A stretch of 64,000 bases of DNA from Thiohalorhabdus sp. Cl-TMA (GTDB lineage: Bacteria > Pseudomonadota > Gammaproteobacteria > Thiohalorhabdales > Thiohalorhabdaceae), in assembly GCF_041821045.1 (NCBI RefSeq), contig NZ_JBGUAW010000001.1:186001-250000 (forward strand), written 5' to 3'. A program made the translations under genes and the position numbers. Numbering within the stretch: position 1 is the first letter of the stretch; every line of letters begins with the position of its first letter. Positions 8,261-43,729 of this stretch are shown here, one piece after another. The notes below the pieces were generated by a model. It saw nothing but the letters and a program-made list of their open reading frames with translations, was not told the DNA's origin and ran no database searches.

Positions 8261-8296
8261 GAATCCAGGCGTCTCAAGAGCGCGAGGCTTGCAACG

Positions 8297-8950: not shown

Positions 8951-8959
8951 GCCCGGCTA

Positions 8960-9544: not shown

Positions 9545-9574
9545 CCTCCGGTTTTTTCAGATCAGGACTGCCCC

Positions 9575-10669: not shown

Positions 10670-10717
10670 CGGAACGGTTGACAGCCCGGAGCCGATTTTT
10701 AAAATAAGTAGCCTTCT

Positions 10718-10793
10718 GGCGGATTAGCTCAGTGGTTAGAGCAACGGAATCATAATCCGTGTGTCCGGGGTTCAAATCCCTGATCCGCCACCA
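10718..10793 (+). tRNA. tRNA-Met (CAU), elongator type
   Basis: A 76-nt cloverleaf: acceptor GGCGGAT / ATCCGCC, D-arm AGCTCAGTGGTTAGAGC, anticodon CAT within ATCATAA, T-arm GGGGTTCAAATCCC, encoded CCA. CAU could also be the lysidine-modified Ile2 isoacceptor. The anticodon stem and the GTGTC variable loop look like elongator Met, as does the position after ychF. Confidence 0.9.
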
Positions 10794-10800
10794 TTCATCG

Positions 10801-10829
10801 AAGCCGCCCCCACGGGGGCGGCTTTTTTT
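10801..10829 (+). terminator. Rho-independent terminator after tRNA-Met
   Basis: An 8-bp GC stem (GCCGCCCC / GGGGCGGC), extended by AA/TT, followed directly by seven T residues. It ends the ychF-tRNA transcript before the sensor kinase gene. Confidence 0.9.
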
Positions 10830-10915
10830 GTCCGGGTTCTCCCTGGCGCGACATGGTGTAAACCGGTGGGTACAGGTACCATTCCCCGTACCTCCGGAGC
10901 TAAGGATGCCCGTGC

Positions 10916-13477: not shown

Positions 13478-13498
13478 CCGCCGGCGTGCGCCCGGCGC

Positions 13499-22451: not shown

Positions 22452-23125
22452 TCAGGTGCCGGAGTCGCCGGCGTCCAATCGGCGGTACTGTACAGCCTCG
22501 GCGATGTGGGCCTGACCGATGCGGTCCGTCTCCGCCAGGTCGGCAATGGTGCGGGCCAGCTTGAGGATGCGGTGATAGGCCCGGGCGGAGAGCCCCAGGT
22601 GCTTGCTGGCGGTCTCCAGGAAGGCGAGCCCCTCCTCGTCCGGGCGGCAATGCGCCTCAACGCCCTTGGCGCCGAGGGCGGCGGCGGGCGCACCGAGCCG
22701 TTCAAGCTGACGGTGGCGGGCCCCCTCGACCCGGGCGCGCACGGTGGTGCTGTCCTCCTCGACGGTGCCCTGGCCGGGCCGCAAGTCCTCCACGGGAAGC
22801 GCCGGGACCTCAAGCTGCAGATCGATGCGATCCAGGAGCGGGCCGGAGAGGCGACCCCGGTAGCGCTGCACCTGCGCGGGGGTGCAGGTGCAGGCATGCC
22901 GGGCGTCCCCGAGGTGCCCGCATGGGCACGGGTTCATGGCCGCCAGGAGCTGGAACCGGGCGGGAAAGCGCGTGGTGCCGCGTGCCCGGGCGATGGTCAC
23001 CTCTCCGGTCTCCAGCGGCTCGCGCAGGGCTTCCAGGGTGCGGCGGTCGTATTCGGGAAGCTCGTCGAGGAACAGCACCCCCCGGTGCGCCCGCGTGATT
23101 TCGCCTGGACGGGGCGGGCTGCCGC
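22452..23125 (-). pseudogene. comM: comM (yifB) 3' fragment, split by the Tn7-like element
   Basis: Encodes the C-terminal part of the Mg-chelatase-like AAA+ helicase ComM. The fragment starts at the transposon junction with SGSPPRPGEI and includes HRGVLFLDELPE (Walker B), MNPCPCGHLGD and the C-terminal Mg_chelatase_C region. Removing the element and one copy of GCCGC rejoins it in frame with 43725-44564 as LVGGGSPPRPGEI, giving about 502 residues, normal for ComM. ComM is a branch-migration helicase that helps integrate DNA during natural transformation, so the insertion should inactivate it. Confidence 0.95.
23121..23125. repeat. Target-site duplication GCCGC, left copy
   Basis: The 5 bp directly before the element's terminal TGT. 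The identical GCCGC follows the terminal ACA at the other end (43725-43729). Five-bp duplications are characteristic of Tn7-like transposition. Confidence 0.93.
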
Positions 23126-23256
23126 TGTAAATTACAAAAGAAATTGACACTCCGGCAGATCATATCAAGGACTTAGGTGAAAAATTTATAAAAGAAATTG
23201 ATATTATTCCAAAAGGAGTTGACACTGGATTAAATTTTACAAAAGTTGGTGCAACT
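23126..23256. repeat. Left end with four TnsB-site-like repeats
   Basis: Four related ~21-bp units with the core (A/T)ACAAAAGAAATTGACACT or variants: 23131-23151, 23185-23205, 23206-23226 and 23235-23256. The first abuts the terminus, the second and third are tandem, and the fourth is most diverged. This spaced arrangement on the left resembles Tn7, where TnsB binds such repeats. Confidence 0.8.
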
Positions 23257-23273
23257 GAGTTGTGGTCCGAAGT

Positions 23274-23975
23274 ATGCCCAAGCGGAAGATCTTGCGGAAC
23301 TACCGAAGCGTCACCGGCATATCCCTCAACCGGGGGGAGGGCCGGGTATCGGCTTACGAGTCCACCCTGGAACGGGACCTGATGACTGCTCTTGAGTTCG
23401 ATCTGGGCTTCGGGGTCGAGACCTACGAGGAGCAGCCGGTGGTGATCGAGTACACCAAGCCTGATGGTGCCCGCGGACGGTACACCCCGGACATTCTCAT
23501 TAAATATAGGGCCGCCGGGGGCGGGGCGCGTCAACCCGGCAAGCTGGTGGAGGTCAAATATTCCGATGAGCTCAAGGAGAAGTGGGCGGAGCTTGAGCCC
23601 CGCTTCGCCGCCGCCCGGGCCTATGCGGAAGCGCAAGGCTGGACGTTCGAGGTCCTGACCGAGCTAGAGATCCGGACCCCGTACTTCAAGAACGTGAAGT
23701 TCCTCCTGCCCTACAGGCAAATGGAATGTGACGACGCGTTAATGGAGGCCGTGGCCGAGGCACTCGCCGGCCTCGGCCAGTCCACGCCCAAGGCGCTAGT
23801 GGCGTCGGTCTCGCCCCATTGGCGGGTCCAGGGAGAGGCGGTGGCCGCCCTTTGGTGCCTCGCCGCCCGCCGGGCAATCGCTTTGGACCTCTCGGTGCCC
23901 GTGACGATGAAGAGCCCCATTGAACTGGCCGAAGGCTGGCGGGAGCGGTTGGACTGGGAGGAAGATTTGGGATGA
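23274..23975 (+). CDS. tnsA: TnsA-type transposon endonuclease
   Basis: TnsA makes the 5'-strand cuts that free a Tn7-like element, giving cut-and-paste movement. 233 residues from the ATG at 23274. The restriction-enzyme-like triad is visible: Glu in YESTLERDLM, Asp in YTPDILIKY, and Glu/Lys in VEVKYSD. A C-terminal helical domain follows. It begins 17 bp after the last left-end repeat and its stop overlaps tnsB by 4 bp, so the transposition genes form one operon. Possible autoregulation by TnsB binding next to the promoter is inference. Confidence 0.9.
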   Translation: MPKRKILRNYRSVTGISLNRGEGRVSAYESTLERDLMTALEFDLGFGVETYEEQPVVIEYTKPDGARGRYTPDILIKYRAAGGGARQPGKLVEVKYSDELKEKWAELEPRFAAARAYAEAQGWTFEVLTELEIRTPYFKNVKFLLPYRQMECDDALMEAVAEALAGLGQSTPKALVASVSPHWRVQGEAVAALWCLAARRAIALDLSVPVTMKSPIELAEGWRERLDWEEDLG

Positions 23976-25885
23976 CCACGCTGACCGATCTCAATCCGGG
24001 TCGCAGGATCAAATGGCGAGGGCATTTCTACCGGGTCCGGGAACTCGTCACCCCGTCCAAGCTCCTGGTGGAGAACGCCAGTACGGGCGAGACTAAGGTG
24101 CTGAGCGTCTCGGACCTGCAAGATATAGCCCCTGAAGAGGAAGAAGCAGAGGCGACGGAGGGACCACCGGACCTTGCCACCTTGCACGACAAGGACTGGA
24201 AGGTCGCCAAGGAGCGTTTCGAGGCGATCCGGCCGCTTCTGGAGCTGGAGAAGCGGACTCGGGCCGATGTAAAAGCGCGGGCCGCAGAAACAGGGTGCTC
24301 GCCGGAATCCCTTTATCGGTGGATGCGTCTCCATCAGGAGGCCGGAGTCGTCGCCGCCCTTGCCCCCAAATCGCGCTCAGGCGGCGAAGGGAAAAGCCGC
24401 CTCAGCCCGGAGGTGGAAGCGCTCCTGACGGACACACTCGAAGAGGTGTACCAGAAGCCCCGCCGGCCCAGCGTCCAGCATACATGCAGGGAAGTGCTGC
24501 GACGCTGCCGTAACGCCGGGCTCGAAGCGCCCCACCCCAACACGGTCCGAAACCGGATCGCCCAGCTAAGCGAGCGGGAAAAGATGAAGAGGCGCGAGGG
24601 CACCAAGGCAGCCCGGGAGAGGTTCGCCCCGAAGCCCGGCCGGCATCCGGAGGCCGGGGAACCCCTTGGGGTCGTCCAGATCGACCATACCAAGCTGGAT
24701 ATCACCCTCGTGGACGATCTCGATCGCCGTCCGGTGGGTCGCCCCTGGCTCACCCTGGCCATTGATATCTACAGTCGCATGATCGTTGGGTTTTACCTTT
24801 CCTTTGACCCGCCCAGTGCCGAGTCTGTGGGCCTGTGTCTCAGCCAGGCGATACTCCCCAAGGACCAATGGCTCGCAGAGCGGGAAATCGATGCCGAATG
24901 GCCTGTTCAGGGAGTAATGAGCAAGATCCAGTCGGACAACGCCCGGGAGTTCCGGAGCGTCATGCTGGAGAGCGCCTGTAAGAATTACGGAATCGACATC
25001 GAATGGCGCCCCGTTTACCGCTCTGACTACGGCGCTTACGTGGAGCGGTTCTTCCGGACGCTCAATGCCGAACTCCATAACCTTCCTGGCACTACAAAGT
25101 CGAGCGTGGCGGAAAAGCGCGATTACGAACCTGATCGGGAAGCGTTCATGTCACTGACCGAGTTCGAGACCTGGCTGGGACGTTTGATCACCCAGGTCTA
25201 CCATGAGGAGGTGCATACCGAGTTGGGTATGCCTCCGGTCCGGATGTATATCCGAGGCATATTCGGTGACGACGATACCCCAGGGCGGGGAATCGCGCCG
25301 GTACCTACTGATACCCAGCGCCTGCGCCTGAGTTTTACGCCCCTTTTCGAGCGGACCGTCCAGTCCTACGGGATCACGCTCGACAAGATCCACTACTATC
25401 ACGATGTCCTGCGCCGTTGGATCCATGCCACGGATCCAGATAACCCGAAGGAAAAGCGGAAGTTCCTGTTCCGTCGGGACCCTCGGGACATCAGCACGGT
25501 CTATTTCCTCGATCCAGAGGAGGATCGCTACTTCCCGATTCCCTACCGGGATGCCGGACGGCCTAGGATGAGCTTGTGGGAACTCCGGGAAGCGCGGAAA
25601 AGGGCTCAGGAGCTTTGGGGGCGGGCTGACGAGGATACGATCTTCGAGGCATACAACCAGCTCCGGGAGCTGGAGGAGCGGGCCCAGAAGGAGACCCGGA
25701 AGGCGCGCAGGAAGGCGCAGCGCCGCAGGGACTGGCGGCGGGCTGGTGAGGCTCCCGAATCGCTGGAATCCGAATCTCCTCCACCCAAGAGGGAGGCCCC
25801 CTCCGCTGAGGCTGAGGAGGAGGACGAGGATGTGATCGAGCCCTTCGACGAGGTGGAAATTCGCAGCAATGACAATAGGGACTGA
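23972..25885 (+). CDS. tnsB: TnsB/TniA-type DDE transposase
   Basis: 637-residue Mu/rve-family integrase. N-terminal helix-turn-helix DNA-binding segments (SPESLYRWMRLHQE region) precede the catalytic core. The DDE residues are Asp in VQIDHTKLD (about 237), Asp in IQSDNAREF (about 322) and Glu in YVERFFRTL (about 357), with the expected 35-residue D-E spacing. A mu-type C-terminal beta-barrel and a charged, Glu/Arg-rich tail follow; the tail is where TnsB usually contacts TnsC. TnsB joins the 3' ends to target. It overlaps tnsC by 17 bp. Confidence 0.95.
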   Translation: MTTLTDLNPGRRIKWRGHFYRVRELVTPSKLLVENASTGETKVLSVSDLQDIAPEEEEAEATEGPPDLATLHDKDWKVAKERFEAIRPLLELEKRTRADVKARAAETGCSPESLYRWMRLHQEAGVVAALAPKSRSGGEGKSRLSPEVEALLTDTLEEVYQKPRRPSVQHTCREVLRRCRNAGLEAPHPNTVRNRIAQLSEREKMKRREGTKAARERFAPKPGRHPEAGEPLGVVQIDHTKLDITLVDDLDRRPVGRPWLTLAIDIYSRMIVGFYLSFDPPSAESVGLCLSQAILPKDQWLAEREIDAEWPVQGVMSKIQSDNAREFRSVMLESACKNYGIDIEWRPVYRSDYGAYVERFFRTLNAELHNLPGTTKSSVAEKRDYEPDREAFMSLTEFETWLGRLITQVYHEEVHTELGMPPVRMYIRGIFGDDDTPGRGIAPVPTDTQRLRLSFTPLFERTVQSYGITLDKIHYYHDVLRRWIHATDPDNPKEKRKFLFRRDPRDISTVYFLDPEEDRYFPIPYRDAGRPRMSLWELREARKRAQELWGRADEDTIFEAYNQLRELEERAQKETRKARRKAQRRRDWRRAGEAPESLESESPPPKREAPSAEAEEEDEDVIEPFDEVEIRSNDNRD

Positions 25886-26756
25886 GCCAGCCCATGATCA
25901 TCTGAATGCCGATGCCCGGGAGGCTCTTGAGCTTCCGTCAGAAGAGCGCATCCGGATCGTGCAGCAGGCGCGGTGGATAGGCTATCCGCGGGCCAAGGAG
26001 GTCCTGGAAAAGCTTGAGGGGTTGCTTAACCATCCCCATAAGGCCCGCATGCCGAATATGCTCCTGGTCGGGGAGACCAACAACGGAAAGACGGTAATCG
26101 TCAATCGCTTTCTCGAAGGGCACCCGCCGGATGACAACCCTTCCGGCGAAGCGATTCACGTACCAGTTCTCTCCATCGAGGCGCCACCCACGCCCGATGA
26201 GGCCCGGTTCTACGATGAGATCCTTTACAAGCTGAATATTCCGTTCAGGAAGAGCGATCGAGTATCGAACAAAGCCCTTCAGGTTGAGAAGGTCTTCCGG
26301 TACGTGGGCCTCCGCATGCTCATCGTGGATGAGATTCACAACCTGCTAGCTGGCCATGAGAAGCGGCAGCGGCAATTCTTAAACGCCCTGAAATGGCTCA
26401 CCAATACCTTACAGATCCCCATTGTCGGCGTGGGTACGCCGGAGGCGACGGCGGCGCTGCGGGTGGATCCCCAGGTGCGCAACCGGTTCACGCCGATGGA
26501 GCTGCCCAAATGGGAGAATGACAAGGCGTTCCGGCGACTGCTAGCGAGCTTCGAGCGGACCCTGCCCCTGAAGTGGCCATCCAACCTCCACGAGCGGGAG
26601 TTGGCCCGCCGTCTCCATGCCCTGTCCGAAGGGACCATTGGCGAGCTGGCCGATTTGCTGGGGATGGCAGCCATCGAGGCGATCCGTGGCGGAGAGGAGT
26701 GCATTAATTCCCAGCTGGTAGGGGCTCTGGGTTGGACCCCGCCCTCCAAGCGTTGA
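25869..26756 (+). CDS. tnsC: TnsC/TniB-type AAA+ transposition regulator
   Basis: ATP-dependent regulator that bridges the TniQ-bound target to the TnsAB transposase. Walker A is LLVGETNNGKT near residues 65-75; Walker B is MLIVDEIHNLL near 150. The sensor-type segment VGVGTPEA follows. At 295 residues it is the compact TniB size, far shorter than TnsC of prototype Tn7 (about 555). Confidence 0.93.
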   Translation: MTIGTEPAHDHLNADAREALELPSEERIRIVQQARWIGYPRAKEVLEKLEGLLNHPHKARMPNMLLVGETNNGKTVIVNRFLEGHPPDDNPSGEAIHVPVLSIEAPPTPDEARFYDEILYKLNIPFRKSDRVSNKALQVEKVFRYVGLRMLIVDEIHNLLAGHEKRQRQFLNALKWLTNTLQIPIVGVGTPEATAALRVDPQVRNRFTPMELPKWENDKAFRRLLASFERTLPLKWPSNLHERELARRLHALSEGTIGELADLLGMAAIEAIRGGEECINSQLVGALGWTPPSKR

Positions 26757-26769
26757 GGAGGAACCGTAT

Positions 26770-28794
26770 GTGGGTGCCCGTGTCCTAGAATCATTCCTCT
26801 GGACCATCCATCCCAAACCTGCCCCAGATGAGCTCCTGTCCTCCTGGCTCATCCGCCTCGCCAAGGCGCATGGTCTTTCCCCTTTCACCTTCTGCAACCT
26901 GGAATGGCCAAATCGGCCGCTCTGGCGACGGGACCTGGACAGGACCGTCGATTCGGATTTCCTGCTCGAGCTGGCGGAGCGAACGGGAACGCCATTTGCT
27001 CGAGTGCAGGAAACCACCCTGGCCGCCTATGCGGGGTGTTTATTCGAGACCTTTAACCCCACGGGCCAAACCTTCGGCATCCTTCCACTAGGGGTCTTCC
27101 ACCGCCGCAGAAAGCGGCCGGGCCTCCAGTTCTGTCACCGTTGCCTGGCCGGGGATGGGGAGCCCTACCTCCGGCGGCGATGGCGGATGACCTTTGAAAC
27201 CATCTGCCCGGTGCACGAAGTGAGCTTATTGGCGGTCTGCCCAAGCTGTGCCCTACCCTTGCACCCGCATCTGGTGAAAGATCCTAGGCGGACATTGGCC
27301 GCCTGCTTTCATTGCGGGAGAGACCTGCGGGATACGGAGGAGGGCAAGATTGAGCCCATTTCCGAGGAGATCCTCTGGTTTCAGGCCCTTTTCGATGTCG
27401 GCCTGGATACGGGATGGGTAGAGCTTCCAGGCCAGGGAATCATCCCCGCCGTGGCCTTCAATCGGGGCGCCCACCAGATCGCTAACACCTTGTGCGACCC
27501 AAGATGCATAGGACTTAAGCACCTGATTGAGCAGGAAGTCGGGTTTAACCTGCCGCTGCCCGGGCAAGGCGAGGGGCAAGTGCACCTTCGTTACCTGAAT
27601 GTGGAGATACGACGTGGGCTATTCACTGGCGTAGGCTGGTTGTTGCGGGAGTGGCCGGACCGGTTCGTTCAGGCGTGTCGCCAGTCCGGAGTGCGCACCA
27701 CAGAGCTTGCCTACGACCTGCCCGACTTGCCCTTCTGGTACCAATCGGTCATCAAAGAACAGTTGCTTCCTGGCGCCTATTCGCTCTCCAGCGCGGAGGT
27801 CGATGCCGCAAAGGCCTGGCTGGTTGGCCAGGGGAAAGAGGGCACGAAGGAACAGCTTGGAAGCCTGTTGGGGGCCCGGAAGGCGGGGTTCGTTGCGGAG
27901 GCCCGTCCGGATGGGAACCTGGAGGCACCCGCGGGAATGCGGGAGTTAAAGAAGACAGGACTGCCGCCCCAGGCGGAAAGCCTTTTCCGGTTTTTGGTGA
28001 CGAAATGGGGTCGGAAGCGAATCCGGGAGGGGCATGCCATCCGGGCGCTGAATCGTGACATTGGAGGTCTGCTTAGCCTGGCCCGATGGTCCGGGGAAGG
28101 TCCCTGGCAATGGACCAAGGACATGCTGGCGCGATGGCAGCATGCATTGTTGGTAGAGCGAGCCCTCCGATCCTCTACCCGCTCCACTTACCTTGGAGCC
28201 GTACGAGGGTTACTGCAATACCTCAGGGGGAACAAGTGGCTTAGGCGGGTTATCCGGGAACGAACTGGAATGGCCTTGCAGTTGGGGCCTCGGGAGTTGG
28301 TTCGGAAGAAAGGCCTTTCCCAGGAGGATGGGAACAACCAGGACGGCTCTAGGAGGGTGTATCCGGAGAAATGGATCAACCTTATATCCGGTAAGCCTGG
28401 CCGGGCATCCATCCGGGGAGGCAACCTTACGGGCCGAAAGCGAGGGCCCATGTATTTGGGGCGCAGGTTTGCACCCAACTCTCAGCTCGGGACCCATCAT
28501 TGGTGCGATGAATGTGGCCGAAGGCTGGAAAAAGGAAGAGTAAAAGCTATCCATGAGGAGTGGGCCTATTGCCAAACCTGTTACGCTCGAATTTTTCGAA
28601 AGGTTGCATGCGAGAGGTGTGGAAAGACCGTCCGAACCCCCCATGGGCGGAAACCAGCTATATGCAAGGGTTGCCGCATCAAGGGAAGGCGGTGCATGCG
28701 GTGCCGGCGGCTGGTATCTCGGGCCGGAATGACCGTAATGGGGGGCGTGTTATGCGGGTCCTGCGCAAATACCGTACGGGCCATCGGCATATAG
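26770..28794 (+). CDS. tniQ: TniQ/TnsD-family target-selection protein 1, with C-terminal zinc ribbons
   Basis: 674 residues from a GTG behind GAGGAGGA. The N-terminal TniQ domain starts with PDELLSSWLIRLAKAHG. Its zinc motifs are FCHRC (about residue 121), CPVHE, CPSC and CFHCG. After a helical middle part, the last ~90 residues hold at least three more CxxC pairs (CDECG, CQTC, CERCG, CKGC, CMRC, CGSC), an extra zinc-ribbon array that ordinary TniQ lacks. The length fits a sequence-specific TnsD. It is the best candidate for recognition of comM, but the second TniQ could do this instead. Confidence 0.88.
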   Translation: MGARVLESFLWTIHPKPAPDELLSSWLIRLAKAHGLSPFTFCNLEWPNRPLWRRDLDRTVDSDFLLELAERTGTPFARVQETTLAAYAGCLFETFNPTGQTFGILPLGVFHRRRKRPGLQFCHRCLAGDGEPYLRRRWRMTFETICPVHEVSLLAVCPSCALPLHPHLVKDPRRTLAACFHCGRDLRDTEEGKIEPISEEILWFQALFDVGLDTGWVELPGQGIIPAVAFNRGAHQIANTLCDPRCIGLKHLIEQEVGFNLPLPGQGEGQVHLRYLNVEIRRGLFTGVGWLLREWPDRFVQACRQSGVRTTELAYDLPDLPFWYQSVIKEQLLPGAYSLSSAEVDAAKAWLVGQGKEGTKEQLGSLLGARKAGFVAEARPDGNLEAPAGMRELKKTGLPPQAESLFRFLVTKWGRKRIREGHAIRALNRDIGGLLSLARWSGEGPWQWTKDMLARWQHALLVERALRSSTRSTYLGAVRGLLQYLRGNKWLRRVIRERTGMALQLGPRELVRKKGLSQEDGNNQDGSRRVYPEKWINLISGKPGRASIRGGNLTGRKRGPMYLGRRFAPNSQLGTHHWCDECGRRLEKGRVKAIHEEWAYCQTCYARIFRKVACERCGKTVRTPHGRKPAICKGCRIKGRRCMRCRRLVSRAGMTVMGGVLCGSCANTVRAIGI

Positions 28795-28899
28795 GGGACG
28801 GCGCCATTATAGCGGCAATTGTGGTTTGGACTGAGCACCAGGATCGTAAACGTCAAAAAGGCACGAAGTGATCCGACAGTAAGACCTGAGGAGAGCAGC

Positions 28900-29013
28900 A
28901 TGTCTGACGGAGCAATTGTAATGCTGTTCGGAACCGTCATCCTAGGGGTTCTGGGCGCCGTGAGCATCATCGGTCAAGTCCGCCAGGCCCGTCGTGGTCG
29001 GGATAAAAAGTAG
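28900..29013 (+). CDS. 37-residue single-pass membrane protein
   Basis: ATG with a good ribosome-binding site (GAGGAGAGC). The peptide is one hydrophobic helix (IVMLFGTVILGVLGAVSIIG) followed by a basic tail rich in Arg and Lys. It lies 105 bp after tniQ. No family recognised. The clear RBS and membrane topology argue it is real; the function is unknown. Confidence 0.5.
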   Translation: MSDGAIVMLFGTVILGVLGAVSIIGQVRQARRGRDKK

Positions 29014-29032
29014 GCGCATAGGCGGCCATTAT

Positions 29033-29190
29033 GTGCTGTTATCTTTTGCTGGCGTGATCATCCTCTGGGGTACGCCCTGTCTTTTCGGCCCCAGAGCACC
29101 CGGCTCGGTGGGACCGGGGTTGGAGCCGGACTGTTGGGTCTGGCTGTAATGCTCTGGGTCAACCACCAGGCCAAGAAGCACAAATCCTGA
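29033..29190 (+). pseudogene. Probable frameshifted small membrane protein gene
   Basis: A GTG-started frame gives MLLSFAGVIILWGTP; a second frame ending at 29190 gives GVGAGLLGLAVMLWVNH and a basic tail. Together they would make a two-helix membrane protein like the 37-residue neighbour, but a frameshift near 29110-29120 separates them. No RBS is obvious, and the reading is tentative. Confidence 0.3.
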
Positions 29191-29464
29191 AGGTCAGGGT
29201 ATAGCCGGTTCGCCACCGCTCGCCGCCGGAGCCCTTGCTCGCAAATCCCCATCTCCCCCGTATGTTCCAATGACCTCGCCTTCCAATCGGCTCTGGCTCT
29301 AGGCCTCTGCTTTGGCCTGCTTTCCGGCTGAGCGGGACCGCCGTTGGGTACTCAAGAGAAATTCACGTCCACCGGAACCAGCCAGCCGAGCAGCCCAAAA
29401 GCCATGGGTGAGGCCGGGCCTCGATGCTATGGGTTGGGGGCGGCCAAGACCATAGCCCCAGACC

Positions 29465-29881
29465 CTAAAACTGTTGTACGGAAGACTCATATTCCCCGAT
29501 CGCAACAGCCTCAAAAGCGCAGAATAGGGCCATGTTAGTCTCCCAGCAGGATTTGGCGACCTCCAGGAGGTGGTGCACGTCGTTGGCGCCTCGGTGGGTG
29601 TAAATGCCCTTTGGTTGGCCGTTCCCGGGCCATCTGGTAAGCGGTGACGTCCCCACGGGCGAGGTCGACCAAGTACCTGAGGGCGTCATTCCCATCACTG
29701 TCTTCCTACCAAGCTGTCACAAGACCTCCTCGGTCACCTGGCGTGGGGGCAGCCCATGTTTCGCTAGGTAGGCTCGGGACAGGCCGTGCACCCCCTGGGC
29801 AGCGAGGTTCCAATCGGTCCAATCCTCAATACCGGTAAGGTTGATCAGGAAAGACCGGATGATTCCAGTGGTAAGGTCCAT
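29465..29881 (-). pseudogene. Decayed pair of small genes of unknown function
   Basis: On the minus strand, an ATG at 29879-29881 behind GAGGTGG opens a 54-codon frame (MDLTTGIIRSFLINLTG..., stop at 29717-29719). Fifteen bp later an ATG begins a second frame ending at 29465. The best protein-like reading of the second gene starts in one frame, passes through another (NDALRYLVDLARGDVTAYQ), then returns to the first (IYTHRGANDVHHLLEVAKSC). This implies a one-base loss near the start and a compensating change near 29605. The frame stays open but about 25-30 residues are scrambled. No family recognised. Flanks 29191-29464 and 29882-30164 hold nothing I can support. Confidence 0.4.
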
Positions 29882-30164
29882 CCATGCCACCTCGATGGGT
29901 TAGCTATGCTTTTCATCCAAGCTGGAAGCCTCACAGTCGAGGAAAAACATCACCATCCTTTCTTTTTGCAATATCTAGCAGGGGCTGTTCATCCCCTGAT
30001 TTTCTGTCCTGAACCCGTTACCCTCTACCCCCGTATCCCAACCACCACCAAGTGGAAAATGATGCGCCCAGGCCCGCTTTGTGTCCCGGTAGAATCCGGT
30101 TCCTCCGCAGGACAGTGAAGGACAAATAACCGGCGGCCCAAACCAACAGGAAGAAGGGTGGGAA

Positions 30165-35051: not shown

Positions 35052-35190
35052 GCACAGGGCAGAGGTGGTCCGGTTCTCACGATTGCCGTTCCATCGGAGA
35101 CGGGTGTAGAACGAATAGAGAACGAGTGCTAGTCTTTCTCCTCAGGAAAAACCTCAGTACCATGGTCAGGGACTAGCTAGGAAAGGCCGT

Positions 35191-35928
35191 ATGTCCAAGA
35201 TCGAGTGGACCGAGGAGACCTGGAACCCGGTTACCGGATGCACCAAGGTTTCTCCGGGATGCAAGCACTGCTACGCCGAAACCCTTTCCATCCGGCTCCA
35301 GGGGATGGGGGTCCCCGGCTATGAAAACGGGTTCCAGCTGAGCATTCAGTCCGAGCGCCTAGAGCAACCTCTGAAACGTAGGCGGCCTACCATCTACTTC
35401 GTGAATTCCATGTCCGATCTCTTTCAGGAGGGAGTGCCAGCGGAATTCATTGATCAGGTGCTGGATGTCATACGAAGGACGCCGCAGCACACCTATCAGG
35501 TGCTAACCAAGCGGGCGGAGGTTCTGCCCGCCTTTTTTGAAAAGAGGGAGTGTCCCGAAAACCTTTGGTTAGGGGTCTCAGTTGAAGACCAAAGGTATGG
35601 AGTGCCAAGAATCCCGCTACTCCGGCAGGTAGCTGCTCCCGTGCGGTTTCTATCTGCGGAGCCCTTACTGGAGGACCTGGGAGATATAAACCTGGAGGGA
35701 ATTCAGTGGGTTATCGTTGGGGGAGAATCTGGGCCTAAGGCTAGGCCTATGAAACCGTCATGGGTGGAGAACATCAAAAACCGTTGCGAAGACCAGGGAG
35801 TTCCATTTTTCTTTAAACAGTGGGGGGCTTGGGGGCCAGATGGAGTCCTTCGAAGCAAAAAGGCCAACGGCCGGGACCTAGGTGGGAAAACTTGGGACGA
35901 AATGCCAGCATTACCTGAGATTGTTTAA
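35191..35928 (+). CDS. DUF5131 (phage Gp37/Gp68-like) three-cysteine protein
   Basis: 245 residues. The N-terminus IEWTEETWNPVTGC and the cysteine cluster TGCTKVSPGCKHCYAE (Cys-x6-Cys-x2-Cys) define the DUF5131/Gp37-Gp68 family. Later conserved blocks are NSMSDLFQ, YQVLTKRAE, WLGVSVEDQ and VIVGGESGPKARPM. The Cys spacing and the overall layout recall radical SAM enzymes, but not the canonical CxxxCxxC. It is convergent with the TcmP gene and the two overlap by 18 bp at their stops. Function is unproven; it is found in phages and mobile islands. Confidence 0.85.
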   Translation: MSKIEWTEETWNPVTGCTKVSPGCKHCYAETLSIRLQGMGVPGYENGFQLSIQSERLEQPLKRRRPTIYFVNSMSDLFQEGVPAEFIDQVLDVIRRTPQHTYQVLTKRAEVLPAFFEKRECPENLWLGVSVEDQRYGVPRIPLLRQVAAPVRFLSAEPLLEDLGDINLEGIQWVIVGGESGPKARPMKPSWVENIKNRCEDQGVPFFFKQWGAWGPDGVLRSKKANGRDLGGKTWDEMPALPEIV

Positions 35929-36735
35929 TATGTGACCAGCGATTCGCTTTGCTGGCCCAATCGCTTTAGGGTTGGGGTTGGAGGTGGCGAAAAAGAGTGA
36001 AAACAGGGGGGAATTCTCCATACATAGTCGCTTGGGAGGCAGAACCGACGAAAATAGCCCATCCAAGCGTTCTCGGGCAAAGTTTTCTAGATCGTCAGGG
36101 CCCGGCTCCCTTCGAACTGGTCGAGAACCAAACAGTTCCCCTTGATCAACCTCTTTGTATATCTTTTCACGCCATTCCTGCGTACCAAGAATCCGATCCA
36201 TGGCCGCTTTCTTATCCTCATCCATGGATGAAAAATCAAGCGCAGCCTGCCGGTAAACCCCGCTCAAAGGGAACAAATACCAAACATCCAGGGCCTGGGT
36301 GGCTGAAATTACTTCAAGCGTTCTCCAATCCAATTCCATCCCATAAGGATCAAGGAAAATCACTCCGCGCCAATTCGTTGTATTTAGATTGGGGAGTTTT
36401 TCCTGCAAAACAGAATTCGCATCCCCCAGTTGAACCGCTATTTTCTTATCGCTATGTTCTTTTCTAATACTCCTCAAACCCTCGTATCTTTCTTCATCAC
36501 TTTCAATAAAAAAATAATAATCAAATCCCCCGTTATCCAGGGCCACCTGCGCTGACCCCTTAGCTTCCTTTGGGTCCCCATATTTTGTTTTAACCGCCCC
36601 ACTACCCGCAAAGGCATCAATATAAAGCAGCTTAAATTTTTGCTTTTTCAGTGCGGTGGTAAAACCGTGAAGGTAGTCCTCTAATGCCCCCAATTTTAAT
36701 AAAGTCCACGCCCCACCGAAAACGTTCTCCGTCAT
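35911..36735 (-). CDS. tcmP: Three-Cys-motif partner protein TcmP
   Basis: The family is named for its association with the three-Cys (DUF5131-type) protein, which lies tail-to-tail here. Visible motifs are GGAWTLLKLGALEDYLHGF near the N-terminus, LLYIDAFAGSGAV (motif-I-like, methyltransferase fold) and GVIFLDPYGMELDW. I chose the ATG at 36733-36735 (GGGGGT upstream). In-frame ATGs at 36753 and 36792 are possible; the latter would overlap the HNH gene. It is more AT-rich than the type ISP gene. A methyltransferase-like role with DUF5131 is inference. Confidence 0.82.
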   Translation of the reverse strand: MTENVFGGAWTLLKLGALEDYLHGFTTALKKQKFKLLYIDAFAGSGAVKTKYGDPKEAKGSAQVALDNGGFDYYFFIESDEERYEGLRSIRKEHSDKKIAVQLGDANSVLQEKLPNLNTTNWRGVIFLDPYGMELDWRTLEVISATQALDVWYLFPLSGVYRQAALDFSSMDEDKKAAMDRILGTQEWREKIYKEVDQGELFGSRPVRREPGPDDLENFARERLDGLFSSVLPPKRLCMENSPLFSLFFATSNPNPKAIGPAKRIAGHILNNLR

Positions 36736-36772
36736 ACGACCCCCGGTTACCATCCTGGAATCCCGAAGCCAC

Positions 36773-37522
36773 TTATTGAGCGCACCTTTCAAGGACTCGC
36801 TCTATTCGCGTCGCCTCTATATAGTCATACTTAAAATCCCACTTTTCTTTCACTTTCCTCCACCGCTTCACGTATGTGCAGTGAAAAGCATGACGGGGGG
36901 GCATCCAGTCGGCGGGCCCTTCCGCTCCTTTGCTCATATTGGCACCCGACTCCACGGCAAGCAGATTGGCCGGATCGTTTGCGAATTCACGCTTTTTATC
37001 CGAAGGCCATGTGGCGGCCCCGCTTTCATGAGCTTCCGCCAGGGGTACCACATGGTCAATGTGGAGTTCGGAAGGATCACGGAAGATCTCCCCGGTATAG
37101 GGGCCCCTCCAGATGCCCGTTGCGATCTCGCATTCCCGCGCCGTCTCCCATTCCACCGGTCCCCGGGCCTGGTCGAGAAGAACCTCGGTCCGAGTATCCC
37201 GACAATCCCTATCGGTGTCGGTCCAACCCCCATAGGCGTCCCGCTCATAGCCTGTAGCATGGGGTCCCCCAGCCCGACGCTCCGCCGCAAGGGCACTCTC
37301 CGCCTTCCAAGCCGAGGCAAACTCCCGGCCCTCAAGGGGGCCGGAATGACAGTGATAGCCACCTTCCTGTCTTTCGTTGTGGCAACCTAGATCATCGGTA
37401 CCGCCGGGATGCCCGTACGCTGCAAAAGTACACACCCCTACTAGTAAAACTAGAAGAAGACTCTGACCTGTTACCAGTCCTGAAACGTATTTCGTTTTGG
37501 TGGCCCCATTTATACCGTTCAC
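36773..37522 (-). CDS. Exported YHCH-HNH (DUF1524-like) nuclease
   Basis: 249 residues from a GTG start. A hydrophobic segment (QSLLLVLLVGVCTFAAYG, about residues 20-37) is a likely signal peptide. It is followed by HPGGTDDLGCHNE and GGYHCHSG, the YHYH-type cysteine/histidine motif of secreted proteins. The C-terminal nuclease domain has LHIDHVVPLAEA, FANDPANLLAV and NMSKGAEGPADWMPP, the HNH pattern of the DUF1524/GmrSD C-terminal type. A periplasmic or secreted DNase is predicted. An exported nuclease could degrade DNA entering the cell; that role is inference. Confidence 0.8.
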   Translation of the reverse strand: MNGINGATKTKYVSGLVTGQSLLLVLLVGVCTFAAYGHPGGTDDLGCHNERQEGGYHCHSGPLEGREFASAWKAESALAAERRAGGPHATGYERDAYGGWTDTDRDCRDTRTEVLLDQARGPVEWETARECEIATGIWRGPYTGEIFRDPSELHIDHVVPLAEAHESGAATWPSDKKREFANDPANLLAVESGANMSKGAEGPADWMPPRHAFHCTYVKRWRKVKEKWDFKYDYIEATRIERVLERCAQ

Positions 37523-37582
37523 TTATGGCAGTTGAATCAGGGATCGAGGAACAGAAATATGGAAAAGTCAGGAATCAAAGCC

Positions 37583-39436
37583 TCAGCTCTCGGTTAAACT
37601 GCCACCGTGAATTCGCTCCATACCTGCTGGCTCGAGAAGATTTTCTAGCCACGTAACGGGCCGTCCGTGCTCCCTAGAAAGGGAAAAAAATGCTCGTTGC
37701 TCTGCCCTGGTGAACGCTACGAAAAAAGCGTTCAGTTCTTGTGGTTTGTCGGGGGAAAGACTCCACCAACTTTGGTTATCCAAGCCTAAAAAGATCATTG
37801 TGTGAAACTCAAGCCCCTTGCTCTTGTGGATGGTCATAAGGGGTATTTGGCCGTAACCGACAAACTCGTCAATGGCTTGGGACCAGGTTGGCGATTGCTC
37901 TGCACACTTTGTTAGCAATTGGCGAAATCCGCCCCATACCCTGTCGAAATCCCGCTGTCGACGATAAAACGGAAAAGCTTGGCGTAACTTGTCTTCGTCG
38001 ACCTTCTCCAGCAATTGGCAAGCCAGTTCATCAGCAATTTCCCTCGTAGGCGGATTACGGCGCATAATCCCGCGAAGGACTCGGACGAAAGACTCCAAGT
38101 TCTGTTGAATGGCCTGCTGCTTGAAATCATTTTGCGGATCAGCCGCCTCTAGGTATTGGAAATTACGAAGGGCGGTATTCCAACTGGAAGCGTCCCTTTC
38201 AGAAGCACCCAGGCGAAGGAGTGGCAAAAAAATCTCCGTAAGGTCTTCTCCGAGAAGGTCCTGAATGGGGATGTCCCCGACAGCACGTGCTTCGTTTCTT
38301 AGCCTTAATCCATGGCGGGCCAACTCGGGACGGATCTCCTCTTCTACTTCGTTGGGCTTCATCCGTACAAGCAACGCAATATTGTGCGGCTTCACCTCCC
38401 CTGAGAATATCTCTTGAGAAACCCAGGCCCCGATTGTTGCGGCTTCCTCTTCCCGGTTAGAAAAATCCCAAATAGCGGCTATGTGGCCAGCGACAGTTTT
38501 TGTACCTCGTGCCTCTATCTCTTCAATCGTCGGGTCAATCCTGCTTGCTATAGCTTGTTGAATGCGGACCAGTTCCGGATGGGAGCGCCAGTTTGAAACA
38601 AGCGAAAAATGGGTGGCCGTGAACGCATCCTGAAACCGTTCAAACCCATCGTGCATCGCACCTGCCCAGGCCATTATCTGCTGTTTGTCATCTCCGACGG
38701 CGGTTAGAGCAGCCCCACTTCCTTCAAACGCTTCTCTAATGAGCTGAAATTGGGTATCGGTTGTGTCTTGAAATTCGTCGATAAAAACCACAGGGTAGGT
38801 TAGCTGTAATGCCCGCTTTATTGTGGAGTTTTCACGCAGTAGATAATCGATGAGCCGATTTATCATTGGAAAGGAGAGTAGGGCTTCCTCATTTTCTTCA
38901 AGCTGTTCCTGCCAATACGATTGGACGATTCGCCCCAATCGGCCGTTGCGGCGGATTGGAAGGCGCGTCCGAATAATTGCCGACTCAAGTTGCTTAGTAT
39001 TCACGCTGCGAATTTCGCGGCGCTGAAGAAAATCTTCGAATTCTGTCCTTCCTGGAAAGATGATTCTATATTCACCGGAAGGGCGATAGGGGTCCGGGAT
39101 GGCGGCACGAAAGCGATCTAGCAGCCCCTTTGCGAAGGCATCGAAGGTATAGGAATCGAAACGGCGAGCCTGATCCGGCGGACACCTTTTCTCAATTCGG
39201 GAAGCCAGATTACGTGCGGCATCACGTTTGAAGCTGATTGCAAGAATTCGTTTGGGTGAAGGGCAAAGGGCTGTCTGCAAAAAGTAGGTCGCCTTTTGCG
39301 CTAGGAACTCGGTCTTCCCAGACCCGGCACCCGCGGTAACGAGCACACTCCCTGCAGCTTTAAGAGCTTCCCATGCCTTAGGCTCTAACTCATCAACACC
39401 TTGAGGATACCAGTCCTCCGGCCGGACTAAAGTCAT
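37583..39436 (-). CDS. UvrD/Rep-like helicase, Gabija GajB-like
   Basis: Superfamily 1A helicase, 617 residues. Motif I is VTAGAGSGKTEFL, motif II VFIDEFQDT, motif V/VI region TIHKSKGLEFHTM and FVAFTRAEQRAF. Its start overlaps the upstream OLD-type gene by 4 bp, so the two are translationally coupled. An OLD-type ATPase/TOPRIM protein plus a UvrD-like helicase in this order is the composition of Gabija (GajA-GajB), which cuts phage DNA when nucleotides are depleted. The protein is longer than typical GajB (about 500). Confidence 0.82.
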   Translation of the reverse strand: MTLVRPEDWYPQGVDELEPKAWEALKAAGSVLVTAGAGSGKTEFLAQKATYFLQTALCPSPKRILAISFKRDAARNLASRIEKRCPPDQARRFDSYTFDAFAKGLLDRFRAAIPDPYRPSGEYRIIFPGRTEFEDFLQRREIRSVNTKQLESAIIRTRLPIRRNGRLGRIVQSYWQEQLEENEEALLSFPMINRLIDYLLRENSTIKRALQLTYPVVFIDEFQDTTDTQFQLIREAFEGSGAALTAVGDDKQQIMAWAGAMHDGFERFQDAFTATHFSLVSNWRSHPELVRIQQAIASRIDPTIEEIEARGTKTVAGHIAAIWDFSNREEEAATIGAWVSQEIFSGEVKPHNIALLVRMKPNEVEEEIRPELARHGLRLRNEARAVGDIPIQDLLGEDLTEIFLPLLRLGASERDASSWNTALRNFQYLEAADPQNDFKQQAIQQNLESFVRVLRGIMRRNPPTREIADELACQLLEKVDEDKLRQAFPFYRRQRDFDRVWGGFRQLLTKCAEQSPTWSQAIDEFVGYGQIPLMTIHKSKGLEFHTMIFLGLDNQSWWSLSPDKPQELNAFFVAFTRAEQRAFFSLSREHGRPVTWLENLLEPAGMERIHGGSLTES

Positions 39437-41421
39437 TCTTCATCTTCCCAAAGTCCGATTTTCCGACCAGCATACTTAATAATTGCCCTCAACTCAGGGG
39501 GCGCATTTTGTGCCAAGCTCTGTGCATTGATTCGGCTTAGTGCAGCAACATGGCCTTCAGGCTTGCTGTGACCCAAGAAAAGATACGGATACCATTTAAA
39601 ATGGTCGTCATAGTCAGGGGGATACAGGTTGGGATTTCCGCTCGTTTTTAAAGAAACCGCTTTTTTGTTTTGGATATCATCAGGTTGTCCCCGAGGGCCA
39701 CGTCCTCCAGGCCTCGGCTGCATATAGGCGGTGGGAAAGGCGGAAAGCATGGAAAAATCAATGTCGAGGGGGCTCGAAAAATACACACCTTCTTGGGCTA
39801 GAGCCTTGAGCCAGGGACTATTTTCATAATCCTCTAAGAGTTCTTCGGGGTCTAGGTCCTTGATATTCTCTGGATCGATTTCGCCTGCCAAAACAAACGG
39901 ATTCTCCCCGAAATCTTGCCCTGCTTCAGTTAATTTAGAAATGACATCATGTAGCGTAGCGACTCCGCCATGTGCCCGTCCCAGATCGAGATCAAGGAGT
40001 GTGGCAAAAGGGATCCCCAGATCTGATAAGAGGTTCCAAAAATAGGTAACATAGCGACCCCCAAGCGGCACGACTGGTACGAAGGAGGGGTCTAGTGGGA
40101 TCCCCATAGCCTCGGCGACTCGAGGGATAATGAAACGCTCCGAGTCACCTTCCCCGAGTATTACGAAGCGTGCGAAGTAAATCTCTGGATATGCCTGAAC
40201 GGCTAACCGGATGTACTGACTTGCCTCCTGGTCATCTGACGGCAAGGCCAGCTTACGTGCCGAGGTGCTGCGCAATGGTTGATCGAGCCGGAAGTGGCGG
40301 ATCTCTTCAGGCTCGAGACGACTTAAGATTGCTGGAGAGTGACTAGATAGGGCTACCTGTGCCGAAGGCATCTCTCCAAGGTCCCGAGCTTGCCTCATGA
40401 TTCGGGAAAGAAAGAATGGGGAAAGGCTATTTTCTGGTTCTTCAATGGCAAGAAGGGTAAGATGTGCCCGGCGCAACTTTTCCTGTTCAAATGGGCTTTC
40501 ATCCTGTCCACTGGAAAGTGAGTCACGTTCCGCCTCAAGAGTCGCCGCCGTCAGGGCGATATGAAACAGGGAGCGTTGTCCGTCACTAAGGTCTGAAAGT
40601 GCCCTTTCCTGTCCAGCTTCGTCTGGATAGAAAGAAAATTCCGCCTTCCTGACTAGCTCCTCCGGCCGATTTTCGACCAGGCGCAACCTAGGGGTTGTGT
40701 CCGTATCTCCTTCATGTACCTCCTGCCATCGTCTATTAAGGCGATGGATAATGAACTCTGTGGGCGCCTCTCTTTCAAATCCATTTTGGAGGTCGTTTGC
40801 TGACTGGGTACTGCATTCCCTGAAATTGTCGGACCATCGTGCTGCCTGCCAAAGCCGGCCCTTTAGCAGGGCAGTAACCTGGGTAGCAGCATCCCGGCTC
40901 GCCGGTAAATAAACGAGTTGAATCGAACCACGTTCTACGGCTTGCACCTGGGGGCATTCGGACCATTCGAAATCGTCCCCAAGGGTGGTGATCCACCGGA
41001 GTTCTTCGTCCACATTACCTTCCGGTGTCCCGTCATCCGTCCATGTTGCTCGAAGAGCCAATCGGCACTTTAGGCTTTCCCCTGGGCCTGAGGCGGCCAT
41101 CTGGCGGAAAAACTCGGGCACGGCGTCCGCGACATCTTCATCCTCTTCGCCATCAAGTTCCGGAAAACCCAGGACCACCTCAACGCCGAGGGACGCCCCA
41201 GATTCAAGCTCTTCGGTGGCAGCCGGAATGTGGAAGTCTTGCCGACGAACCTTTCTTTGATTTGACCCGGTGCCAAAAATCCTGGAGAGAGCCAGGAAAG
41301 CGGCGGTTTTTCCAGCGCCATTGCTCCCGATTAAACAAGTAACAGCCCTCTCAAAATCAATGACGGTTGATCCCGGCCCAAAGGACCGAAAATTTGTTAA
41401 CGATACGCGCTCGATTTTCAT
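39433..41421 (-). CDS. OLD-family ATPase with TOPRIM domain, Gabija GajA-like
   Basis: 662 residues. N-terminal ABC/SMC-like ATPase: LTNFRSFGPGS, Walker A IGSNGAGKTAAF, Walker B LLAIEEPENSLSP, and a signature-like LSDGQRSLFHIAL. The C-terminal TOPRIM nuclease domain is marked by FVILGEGDSERFIIP and the acidic LLDLDLGRAHGG. This is a class 2 OLD nuclease, defined by an adjacent UvrD-like helicase. The coupled helicase gene makes a Gabija-type system the best call. It is about 80 residues longer than the best-known GajA. Confidence 0.83.
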   Translation of the reverse strand: MKIERVSLTNFRSFGPGSTVIDFERAVTCLIGSNGAGKTAAFLALSRIFGTGSNQRKVRRQDFHIPAATEELESGASLGVEVVLGFPELDGEEDEDVADAVPEFFRQMAASGPGESLKCRLALRATWTDDGTPEGNVDEELRWITTLGDDFEWSECPQVQAVERGSIQLVYLPASRDAATQVTALLKGRLWQAARWSDNFRECSTQSANDLQNGFEREAPTEFIIHRLNRRWQEVHEGDTDTTPRLRLVENRPEELVRKAEFSFYPDEAGQERALSDLSDGQRSLFHIALTAATLEAERDSLSSGQDESPFEQEKLRRAHLTLLAIEEPENSLSPFFLSRIMRQARDLGEMPSAQVALSSHSPAILSRLEPEEIRHFRLDQPLRSTSARKLALPSDDQEASQYIRLAVQAYPEIYFARFVILGEGDSERFIIPRVAEAMGIPLDPSFVPVVPLGGRYVTYFWNLLSDLGIPFATLLDLDLGRAHGGVATLHDVISKLTEAGQDFGENPFVLAGEIDPENIKDLDPEELLEDYENSPWLKALAQEGVYFSSPLDIDFSMLSAFPTAYMQPRPGGRGPRGQPDDIQNKKAVSLKTSGNPNLYPPDYDDHFKWYPYLFLGHSKPEGHVAALSRINAQSLAQNAPPELRAIIKYAGRKIGLWEDEE

Positions 41422-42450
41422 CAGATATTTCCGAATACCGTGAGTAGAGTTGAAATTCTAAGAGCTTCCCAGAATACGAAATCTTCAACTTGGCTAGTTA
41501 GAGGCTGCTATCAGGGAACTCCAACCCGAGGTGAACGATCCTTTTTGCAAGAAATTGCCTCCATTAAGGATATGTTGGTATCTAAGTTAACGGGCGCGGC
41601 TTCGAAAATAGCAATAAATGCACCTTGTCACAAAAACATTCCATTACTAAAAATGAATAAGGCCGGGCTGATCCGTTTTAGGATTCCAGGTCGTATCGAC
41701 TTTTTCACGTCACGAGGCTGGTGGTTTGCCGCAGGAAAAAGCGGCAGGGCATGGTCGTGGATTCGGAGCAGCTGAAATTGCCCGCAGGACCACATGATGG
41801 CTAGTTTATGGACGGCCGACCAACGGACGGTGAGTCAATACCCTGGCCATTGCCGCTGGCTTCAACAAGAAGACAATAGGTGTCGTCTATAAGGTTGGCT
41901 CTGGCTGGCCCGTGATTGGGATCATGGAGGAGGGCTGCTGGTTTCGGGGCTTACCGTTGGTCATTCGGACAGATCCGGGCGCGGAACTCACCGACAAGCC
42001 ACTGGGCGTTTGGCCTTACAAAAATGGCACGCATCTCAAGCTTTTCCACGCGAGCAAGCCAATAAAGTAGCGGCATATTAAAATCTACAACGGGTGATTC
42101 CAGGAAGAATCTTAATAAGCACCAGTTAAGCGACCTGGACTATCCTCGGAAGAATTATTAAATATAAGGGGAAAAAATTATATAGACAAAGTGGCCCTTC
42201 AAAGGGTCCCTAGTTTCCTAGGAAGATGGTTTATTCCTCAGAATCCGGTTTGATTTTTTCTGATAATATTCTTGTAGGCTGGACTTGGCTTTATAGGGGT
42301 GGGGTTTGTTGTATGGGTCGTGGGACTTGTTATGGGGTAGGGAGAATTTATAAATAGAAAACCCCTTTAAGAGTGAAGTGAAGGTAAATTTTTTAAAGTT
42401 TTTCGGAAAAATTATTTGGGCCTTTAATAAAAAAATACGAAAAAATTGAC
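41422..42450. other. Mostly non-coding right-hand spacer of the transposon
   Basis: About 1 kb between the GajA-like gene start and the right-end tniQ stop. The first part has ordinary composition; from about 42070 it turns strongly AT-rich. A 111-codon frame at 41440-41775 has no recognisable domain and reads like chance. The only protein-like piece is the fragment at 41834-42070. The leader of the leftward gajA-like operon must lie at its left edge. Confidence 0.4.
41834..42070 (+). pseudogene. C-terminal remnant of an unidentified gene
   Basis: An open plus-strand frame reads LAIAAGFNKKTIGVVYKVG, then WPVIGIMEEGCWFRGLPLVI and KNGTHLKLFHASKPIK before TAG. The text looks like a genuine protein tail, with a balanced hydrophobic pattern. 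There is no start codon after the in-frame TGA at 41831-41833 apart from an internal Met. It is probably debris of an older cargo gene; the family is not recognised. Confidence 0.4.
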
Positions 42451-43671
42451 TTATAAATTTCCTTTTATTGAAAGGTATAAGACCTTCCCTGGGCACATCC
42501 CAATGCGTGTTAAATGGTCCTCCCGAAATTGACTTAATATTCCCCACCGCCCAGGTTGGGGAAAATCCCACTCTCCTGACCATTCAAAATTAAAATTTTT
42601 TAACCTGCCATCATCCGCCAGCCAAAATTTATATTTCTCCAGTTCAAATATAAAACTTAGGTCGATCAGCTTTTTTCCATTGAGAATTTCTCCAATAGCC
42701 CAATGAATATAATTTAACTTAATATTTTCTAGTATTTCTATACTTTCGTTTCTGTTTGACTGGTAAATGTAATCCTGAAAATGCCTTAAAAATTTTGAAG
42801 CGAGCCTTAATTTTGAGGCTCTTTCATGTTGTTTTGCCTTATTAAAAATAGTGGGAAAATTATATTTATTAAGTAATTGCGCCCATGATAATGAGTTATA
42901 AGAAAAGTTATGTAAGGAGGTTGTAGCCTTTTTTAATAAGGGGAAGTTGGCAAGTTGGATCGCTTTTTCAAAATGGTGTTCATATTCTTTTTGGCTGTAA
43001 TTGGAAATTTCTTCGTCAGGAAATTTTACTCTTTTTAAGGCGGATTCTTGAATTTTTAATAATTCATATACTGAATTGTCGAGTTTTCCTGTGTATTCAA
43101 TTTTTCTTGTTATATCCTTACCGCAATGGAGGCATATGTTCAATCTAAAAGCTCTAAAGATAGAGGTTTGGAACCCAACATTTTTATAGCAATGGGGGCA
43201 CCCGGAGCTTAAAAAATTTTTGTGTTCGGGGCAGACAAGGTAAAAACTTAGGCGCCATTTTTTTAAAAAATATGGTTCGTTTGTTTGGGTTAGGCATAGA
43301 GGGCAAAATTGAAAGGTAGGAAATCTATCAAGCCCATTTAAGCTGGTATTTGGAAGGACCCAGTTTTTTATAAGGTGAATCTCATTTGGGCTACTTTGTT
43401 CATTATATAATGTTGTTTTCGACACCTCCTCTGGTTTGAAGCCTGTGGCTTTTCCTATTAATCGGATATGCTTAAAACCTAGGCCGGCTTCCAGGTCAAT
43501 AGGTAACTTCTCCTTTTCTCCAAAAATCCAAAGAAGCAAAGTTCTTAAATTGGTGCCATGGGCGAGGGCTAGCCTAGTTAACCAAGACGAACAAGCCTCT
43601 TCCGTTTTTGGGGGAAGATGTATCGGAAGGGTCTGGTGACCATCCCAAGTATGTGGGGCTGGGTTTGCCAT
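42451..43671 (-). CDS. tniQ: TniQ-family protein 2, right-end and AT-rich
   Basis: 406 residues, transcribed inward from the right terminus. The N-terminal SSWLTRLALAHGTNLR and the zinc motifs FCPLCL, CPEHK, CPHCY and CLHCG are those of the TniQ domain. The start is ATG 43669-43671 (MANPAPHTWDG); a GTG/ATG reading from 43686 would run into the end repeat. Codon use is strikingly A/T-rich (many Lys, Asn, Ile), unlike the GC-rich tnsABC-tniQ1 block, so its origin probably differs. It may be a second target selector; which TniQ reads comM is not evident. Confidence 0.87.
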   Translation of the reverse strand: MANPAPHTWDGHQTLPIHLPPKTEEACSSWLTRLALAHGTNLRTLLLWIFGEKEKLPIDLEAGLGFKHIRLIGKATGFKPEEVSKTTLYNEQSSPNEIHLIKNWVLPNTSLNGLDRFPTFQFCPLCLTQTNEPYFLKKWRLSFYLVCPEHKNFLSSGCPHCYKNVGFQTSIFRAFRLNICLHCGKDITRKIEYTGKLDNSVYELLKIQESALKRVKFPDEEISNYSQKEYEHHFEKAIQLANFPLLKKATTSLHNFSYNSLSWAQLLNKYNFPTIFNKAKQHERASKLRLASKFLRHFQDYIYQSNRNESIEILENIKLNYIHWAIGEILNGKKLIDLSFIFELEKYKFWLADDGRLKNFNFEWSGEWDFPQPGRWGILSQFREDHLTRIGMCPGKVLYLSIKGNL

Positions 43672-43678
43672 GGTTCCC

Positions 43679-43724
43679 AGTCTCAACTTCTTTTGTATAG
43701 TTTCAACTACTCTTGTAATTCACA
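43679..43724. repeat. Right end with two adjacent TnsB-site-like repeats
   Basis: In inverse orientation to the left end: 43699-43720 (AGTTTCAACTACTCTTGTAA and two more bases) and 43679-43698 (AGTCTCAACTTCTTTTGTAT). They abut each other, unlike the spaced left-end sites. The terminal ACA is 43722-43724. tniQ2 starts only 8 bp inside the inner repeat. Confidence 0.82.
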
Positions 43725-43729
43725 GCCGC
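43725..43729. repeat. Target-site duplication GCCGC, right copy
   Basis: Immediately after the element's terminal ACA and identical to 23121-23125. Confidence 0.93.

Follow-up and report, generated by a model that had tools for sequence, protein, structure and literature searches.

The element and its insertion site

The window, meaning the whole 64,000-nucleotide stretch of Thiohalorhabdus sp. Cl-TMA DNA analyzed here, contains a complete Tn7-like element of 20,599 bp (23126-43724) within comM (Table 1). The left end at 23126 reads TGTAAATTACAAAAGAAATTGA, and the reverse complement of the right end at 43724 reads TGTGAATTACAAGAGTAGTTGA, which gives the TGT...ACA termini that mark membership in the Tn7-like group. 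Both ends are flanked by GCCGC, a 5-bp duplication. Removal of the element together with one GCCGC yields a single comM frame of 502 codons from MGHAVV with no stop; in this frame, the end of the duplication lies 840 nt from the ATG. The original prediction of a complete and precisely bounded element is borne out by these features, and the insertion disables comM.

Four TnsB-type 21-mer repeats lie in the left end (at 23131, 23185, 23206, and 23236) and two, spaced by 20 bp, in the right end. In a scan of the 64 kb with the 14-mer repeat consensus, six matches were found, compared with about 1.2 expected from shuffling, and five of the six fall within the terminal ~100 bp of the element. The host genome contains one copy of the element. 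Across the 3.74 Mb genome, the end pattern is found only at these two ends and in one further match with three mismatches.

Table 1. Features of the comM element and its flanks (positions in the window).
Feature	Position	Strand	Basis
Interrupted comM, 3' part; Walker B codons start 47 bp from the insertion point	22452..23125	-	
Target-site duplication GCCGC, left copy	23121..23125	.	Sequence; single copy in same-genus empty site
Left transposon end, TGT terminus, four TnsB-type repeats	23126..23260	+	Repeat scan
tnsA (PF08722 + PF08721), D77 + EVK motif	23262..23975	+	Pfam, motifs
tnsB, DDE transposase (D238, D322, E358)	23972..25885	+	Pfam, motifs, tree
tnsC (TniB family AAA ATPase, PF05621)	25869..26756	+	Pfam, motifs
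Putative target selector, 674 aa	26770..28794	+	Pfam, BLAST, profile comparison
1.37 kb without recognized gene, 58% GC	28795..30164	.	No TnsF remnant, no CRISPR-like repeats
Type ISP single-chain restriction-modification enzyme, 1628 aa	30165..35051	+	
DUF5131 (PDC-M41B candidate defense)	35191..35928	+	
TcmP three-Cys-motif partner (PDC-M41A candidate defense)	35911..36792	-	
GmrSD_C / HNH-type protein	36773..37522	-	
gajB (Gabija UvrD-like helicase)	37583..39436	-	
gajA (Gabija OLD/TOPRIM ATPase)	39433..41421	-	
1.03 kb without recognized gene, 45% GC	41422..42450	.	
Second tniQ (406 aa if begun at ATG 43671), 37% GC	42451..43686	-	Pfam, position
Right transposon end, two TnsB-type repeats, ACA terminus	43683..43724	-	Repeat scan, end comparison
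Target-site duplication GCCGC, right copy	43725..43729	.	Sequence
Interrupted comM, 5' part (ATG to codon 280, 840 nt)	43725..44564	-	

The comM genes of two same-genus genomes (G001 and G002) are uninterrupted at the insertion site of the element. In G001 the duplicated bases are identical (GCGGC in the comM sense) and the surroundings nearly so, while the site in G002 reads GGGGC. The five duplicated bases also differ in other comM insertions, where GTGGC and GTGGA are among those found. The expectation that relatives would carry an empty comM with a single GCCGC is matched exactly by G001, and the refuting condition of the original prediction, close relatives with an intact comM lacking GCCGC here, is escaped in substance, with the variability of these bases as a caution.

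Two other comM insertions were observed at different positions. The G001 gene is split elsewhere, near the Walker A codons (~213-215), by an unrelated element of ~10.8 kb (L035, G001:C6:204500-221500, about 3100-13880) that encodes a large serine recombinase, a GPA-type replication protein, and a nuclease. A Tn7-like element in another genome (L096; G140:C41, 8910-15520) sits at yet another codon of comM, shortly after Walker B, and encodes TnsABC, a 374-aa TniQ, and a 628-aa neighbor. TnsF is absent among the larger ORFs of the part of L096 that was examined, and that element may use another comM selector.

Core transposition genes and relationship to Tn6022

According to Pfam, the element combines TnsA, TnsB, TnsC, and a TniQ-family protein. 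The TnsA motifs are D77 and EVK at 97-99, TnsB retains D238, D322, and E358, and in TnsC the Walker A motif is at 68 and the Walker B motif at 150; we take these residues to be catalytic from established knowledge of the families. The claim that tnsA, tnsB, and tnsC are intact thus holds by motif position. The element is probably still functional as a cut-and-paste transposon, and the suggestion that it may be active is plausible.

Six comM elements served as comparators, from Acinetobacter soli, A. haemolyticus, Marinobacter vinifirmus, Guyparkeria, an Alcaligenaceae MAG, and a Halothiobacillaceae MAG. The insertion base in comM and the orientation are identical in all six, as compared on the left ends and on the right ends where available. 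Identity to the counterparts in these elements is 40-43% for TnsB, 39-45% for TnsC, and 32-36% for TnsA. In a maximum-likelihood tree, TnsB is sister to the Tn6022 comM clade (support 83/85; the clade itself 100/100), with Tn5053 TniA and other Tn7-like branches outside the comM group. The kinship with the Tn6022 branch that had been proposed is upheld by the common base and orientation, and in the suggested TnsB phylogeny the element stands beside that clade. Judged from its genes and its target, the element is a comM-homing Tn7-like transposon related to Tn6022.

The Tn6022/AbaR-type elements, as described for Acinetobacter johnsonii Tn6022, have the TnsA-B-C-TniQ order and the comM target in common with the element (Faure et al., 2023; PMC10293859). 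Tn6022-like loci have the same comM base and orientation, a 5-bp duplication, paired right-end repeats, and a TnsB at the identity given above, but the TnsB of the present element branches as a sister of the sampled TnsF clade rather than within it. Tn5053/Tn402 (L095) encodes TniA and TniB, homologous to TnsB and TnsC (38 and 47% identity), but has no TnsA, carries a recombinase-family resolvase, and uses a different target.

A fused TniQ-TnsF-type protein

Directed insertion of Tn6022 into comM depends on TnsF and TniQ, and TnsF binding needs a 10-bp stretch in the Walker B codons of comM (Faure et al., 2023; PMC10293859). Two adjoining genes encode TniQ (about 360-377 aa) and TnsF (about 480-500 aa) in the comparators, and the two proteins are separate in Tn6022 as well, whereas the gene after tnsC in the present element is a single open frame for a protein of 674 aa. 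Its TniQ core spans residues 13-153 (Pfam), and the protein can be aligned with TniQ to about residue 340. About 230 residues further on, residues 579-671 match TnsF residues 13-102, within the first ~95 residues of the TnsF zinc-finger region, with BLAST E-values of about 1e-10 to 1e-15. In a profile comparison the match covers 91 columns at 35% identity with a probability of 98.9, and all six CxxC pairs (twelve paired cysteines) are kept. Since this is the only piece clearly common with TnsF, the zinc-finger part is the best candidate for comM reading. No other part of TnsF was matched in the fusion. Besides its zinc fingers, the TnsF of the Tn6022 group has two core-binding domains and a partial catalytic domain.

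Within the stretch between the TniQ part and the zinc-finger tail, residues 423-486 (segment about 420-490) weakly match a tyrosine recombinase core-binding domain (Pfam E 0.059). The segment is 36% identical over 70 aa to one multicopy recombinase family, and a profile comparison with the core-binding domains of TnsF itself gave no match. An AlphaFold2 model of the whole fusion was poor (mean pLDDT 56), and neither this model nor that of the core-binding segment allows the folds to be classified; the zinc-finger tail is the best-modeled part and has weak matches to LIM domains.

No separate TnsF was found elsewhere in the host genome, nor a TnsF remnant downstream of the fused gene. The fused protein was found in none of 56 genomes of relatives, 369 of the class, 399 of the phylum, and 3 of the order (overlapping draws), and in no viral contigs. 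In plasmids only the TniQ part was matched, with no place covering more than 80% of the query. Seven TnsF loci were identified in the genome collection, none with both halves in one frame. Two genomes (G406 and G384; loci L053 and L055) encode TnsF-like proteins of 640-641 aa with a zinc-finger start, which are possibly of the active recombinase type of Tsy elements.

A single TniQ-TnsF fusion of the same domain order, SCZ64694, has been reported in one sentence (Faure et al., 2023; PMC10293859). By that description it likewise joins TniQ to the N-terminal zinc fingers of TnsF and lacks the catalytic part. It has a core-binding-like domain in the linker, where the present protein has the weak match noted above. 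The sentence on SCZ64694, in the text of that paper available to us, names no insertion site, element, or second TniQ. The 674-aa protein, matched to this description, may be SCZ64694 itself or a relative.

A second TniQ in the right-end slot

At the right end, far from the tns operon and on the opposite strand, a second tniQ is encoded. Its product contains a TniQ core (Pfam E 6e-23), a C-terminal half of 200 aa with no similarity to any compared TniQ, and no zinc-finger tail of the TnsF type. Its best match among the compared TniQs is of the Tn6022 type (L065, E 5e-19). Assignment as a Tn5053-type TniQ was considered and rejected, since that placement in the tree is weak (59/77) and BLAST favors the Tn6022 type. 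The original prediction overlooked both the fusion and this second TniQ, though its overall interpretation as a Tn7-like comM element related to Tn6022 is retained.

The comparators from Guyparkeria (L067), M. vinifirmus (L065/L113), and the Alcaligenaceae (L068/L116) have the same comM base, orientation, and core operon, but differ in having a separate TnsF and, as the last right-end gene on the opposite strand, a roughly 600-aa protein. These right-end proteins form one family of 592-607 aa and 37-42% identity. The A. baumannii plasmid record with the L046 element also encodes a family member on the opposite strand; the gene is absent at that spot from the two Acinetobacter chromosomal comM elements examined. 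Neither the element in the window nor its host genome encodes a member, and the idea that such a gene had decayed in the gene-free gaps was rejected, as nothing there matched it. These gaps (28795-30164 and 41422-42450) gave no recognized protein, RNA family, or repeat array.

The comparator right-end protein matched no Pfam (including the TnsE_C model), NCBIfam, or PDB entry, and the TnsE_C family search is uninformative, since it returned no match anywhere, controls included. In Tn6022, tnsE lies on the opposite strand (Faure et al., 2023; PMC10293859), and according to the literature TnsE is almost universal in comM elements. From its position and the published Tn6022 layout, the comparator right-end protein is presumed to be TnsE, in whose place the present element encodes the second TniQ.

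Two TniQ-family proteins also occur in some CRISPR-associated transposons (I-B1, I-B2, and some I-F3; PMC11406308). The pair of TniQs raised the idea of such a transposon, which was rejected, because unlike those systems the element contains no recognized Cas protein or repeat array.

Cargo and base composition

The cargo is ordinary defense. It had been put forward as a distinguishing feature, but restriction-modification and Gabija are the commonest defense cargos of Tn7-like elements (PMC8649781), and this part of the original prediction does not stand. The contrast in GC content to which it also pointed is real (61% in tnsABC-tniQ, 37% in the second tniQ, 68% in the host) but proves little. 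The DUF5131/TcmP pair corresponds to the PADLOC candidate PDC-M41. Apparent DUF5131-type and TcmP-like genes, judged by reading the sequence, are also present in the Alcaligenaceae comM element (L068 16667-19604), and their occurrence in two comM elements suggests a recurrent cargo.

Proposed mechanism and alternatives

The whole is best explained, and with good probability, as a comM-homing Tn7-like element that finds its target through a fused selector and also encodes a second TniQ. As the conserved families and intact motifs suggest, cutting and joining of the ends would fall to TnsA and TnsB, and bridging to the target to TnsC. Homing to comM most likely relies on the one fused selector, whose zinc-finger tail would read the conserved Walker B-coding stretch of comM ~47 bp from the insertion point, possibly assisted by the core-binding-like segment, while its TniQ half would recruit TnsC. 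The outcome, seen in comM itself, is insertion at a fixed displaced base with a 5-bp duplication. For the second TniQ, the most likely role is in a different target pathway, where it would stand in for the usual right-end selector, which is TnsE in Tn6022; alternatively, it could be an auxiliary or a decaying gene. Replacement of the selector of the second targeting pathway is our preferred guess, and it remains conjectural.

The element might instead have arrived at comM with a full TniQ and TnsF, in which case a later deletion or rearrangement would have produced a fused gene without function and left the element stranded. All else of TnsF is indeed missing from the fusion, the partial catalytic domain predicted to contact TniQ among it (Faure et al., 2023; PMC10293859); the fusion is present in no other genome searched and is followed by 1.37 kb of gene-free DNA. 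However, the 674-aa frame is open throughout with a fairly even codon-position composition, every CxxC pair is conserved, and the missing part of TnsF has left no trace downstream. The zinc fingers follow the core-binding-like segment instead of preceding it, an order that a simple deletion does not yield, and a protein of the same order is described in the literature (Faure et al., 2023; PMC10293859). We therefore regard a stranded element as improbable.

An origin of the right-end TniQ as the remnant of an AT-rich element, in a composite of two Tn7-like elements, seems about equally improbable. The drop in GC at the second tniQ is sharp, but the same TnsB-type repeats stand at both ends, the duplication matches across the full length, and the second TniQ occupies the slot of a conserved right-end gene. 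Furthermore, the left end has 30% GC, which indicates that AT-rich ends belong to the element. Selection of comM by the second TniQ, alone or with the fused protein, is the least likely of these alternatives. In its favor are the TniQ core, the distinct C-terminal half of 200 aa, and the closeness, among the compared TniQs, to a Tn6022-type one. The only likeness to the demonstrated comM selector, TnsF, is nevertheless found in the fused protein; the second TniQ has no tail of that kind, and its gene stands apart from the tns operon in both place and strand.

A bolder form of the preferred explanation, a comM-homing element with a fused selector, can be offered tentatively, as possible but rather doubtful. 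Both targeting arms would have been rebuilt: a single fusion of TniQ with half of the TnsF zinc fingers would be enough for base-exact homing to comM, while TnsE, as selector of the mobile-DNA pathway, would have given way to a second TniQ whose C-terminal domain is new, without CRISPR.

Significance

What is new here, as far as the sequence and the published text of Faure et al. (2023) allow it to be said, is the combination, in a comM element related to Tn6022, of a putative fused selector with a second TniQ; the fusion architecture itself had been reported once before. Published work showed that TnsF brings Tn6022 to comM and, in the text available, named no part of TnsF as the reader (Faure et al., 2023; PMC10293859). 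The element amounts to a natural deletion experiment, in which ~95 residues of zinc fingers are all that is kept of TnsF and the same comM base is occupied. Should the fused protein be functional, so few residues may suffice as the comM-reading module, and the idea of a compact selector, made of one protein, for a conserved gene could be put to the test. Selector swapping in Tn7-like transposons would gain a new example in the second TniQ of the right-end slot.
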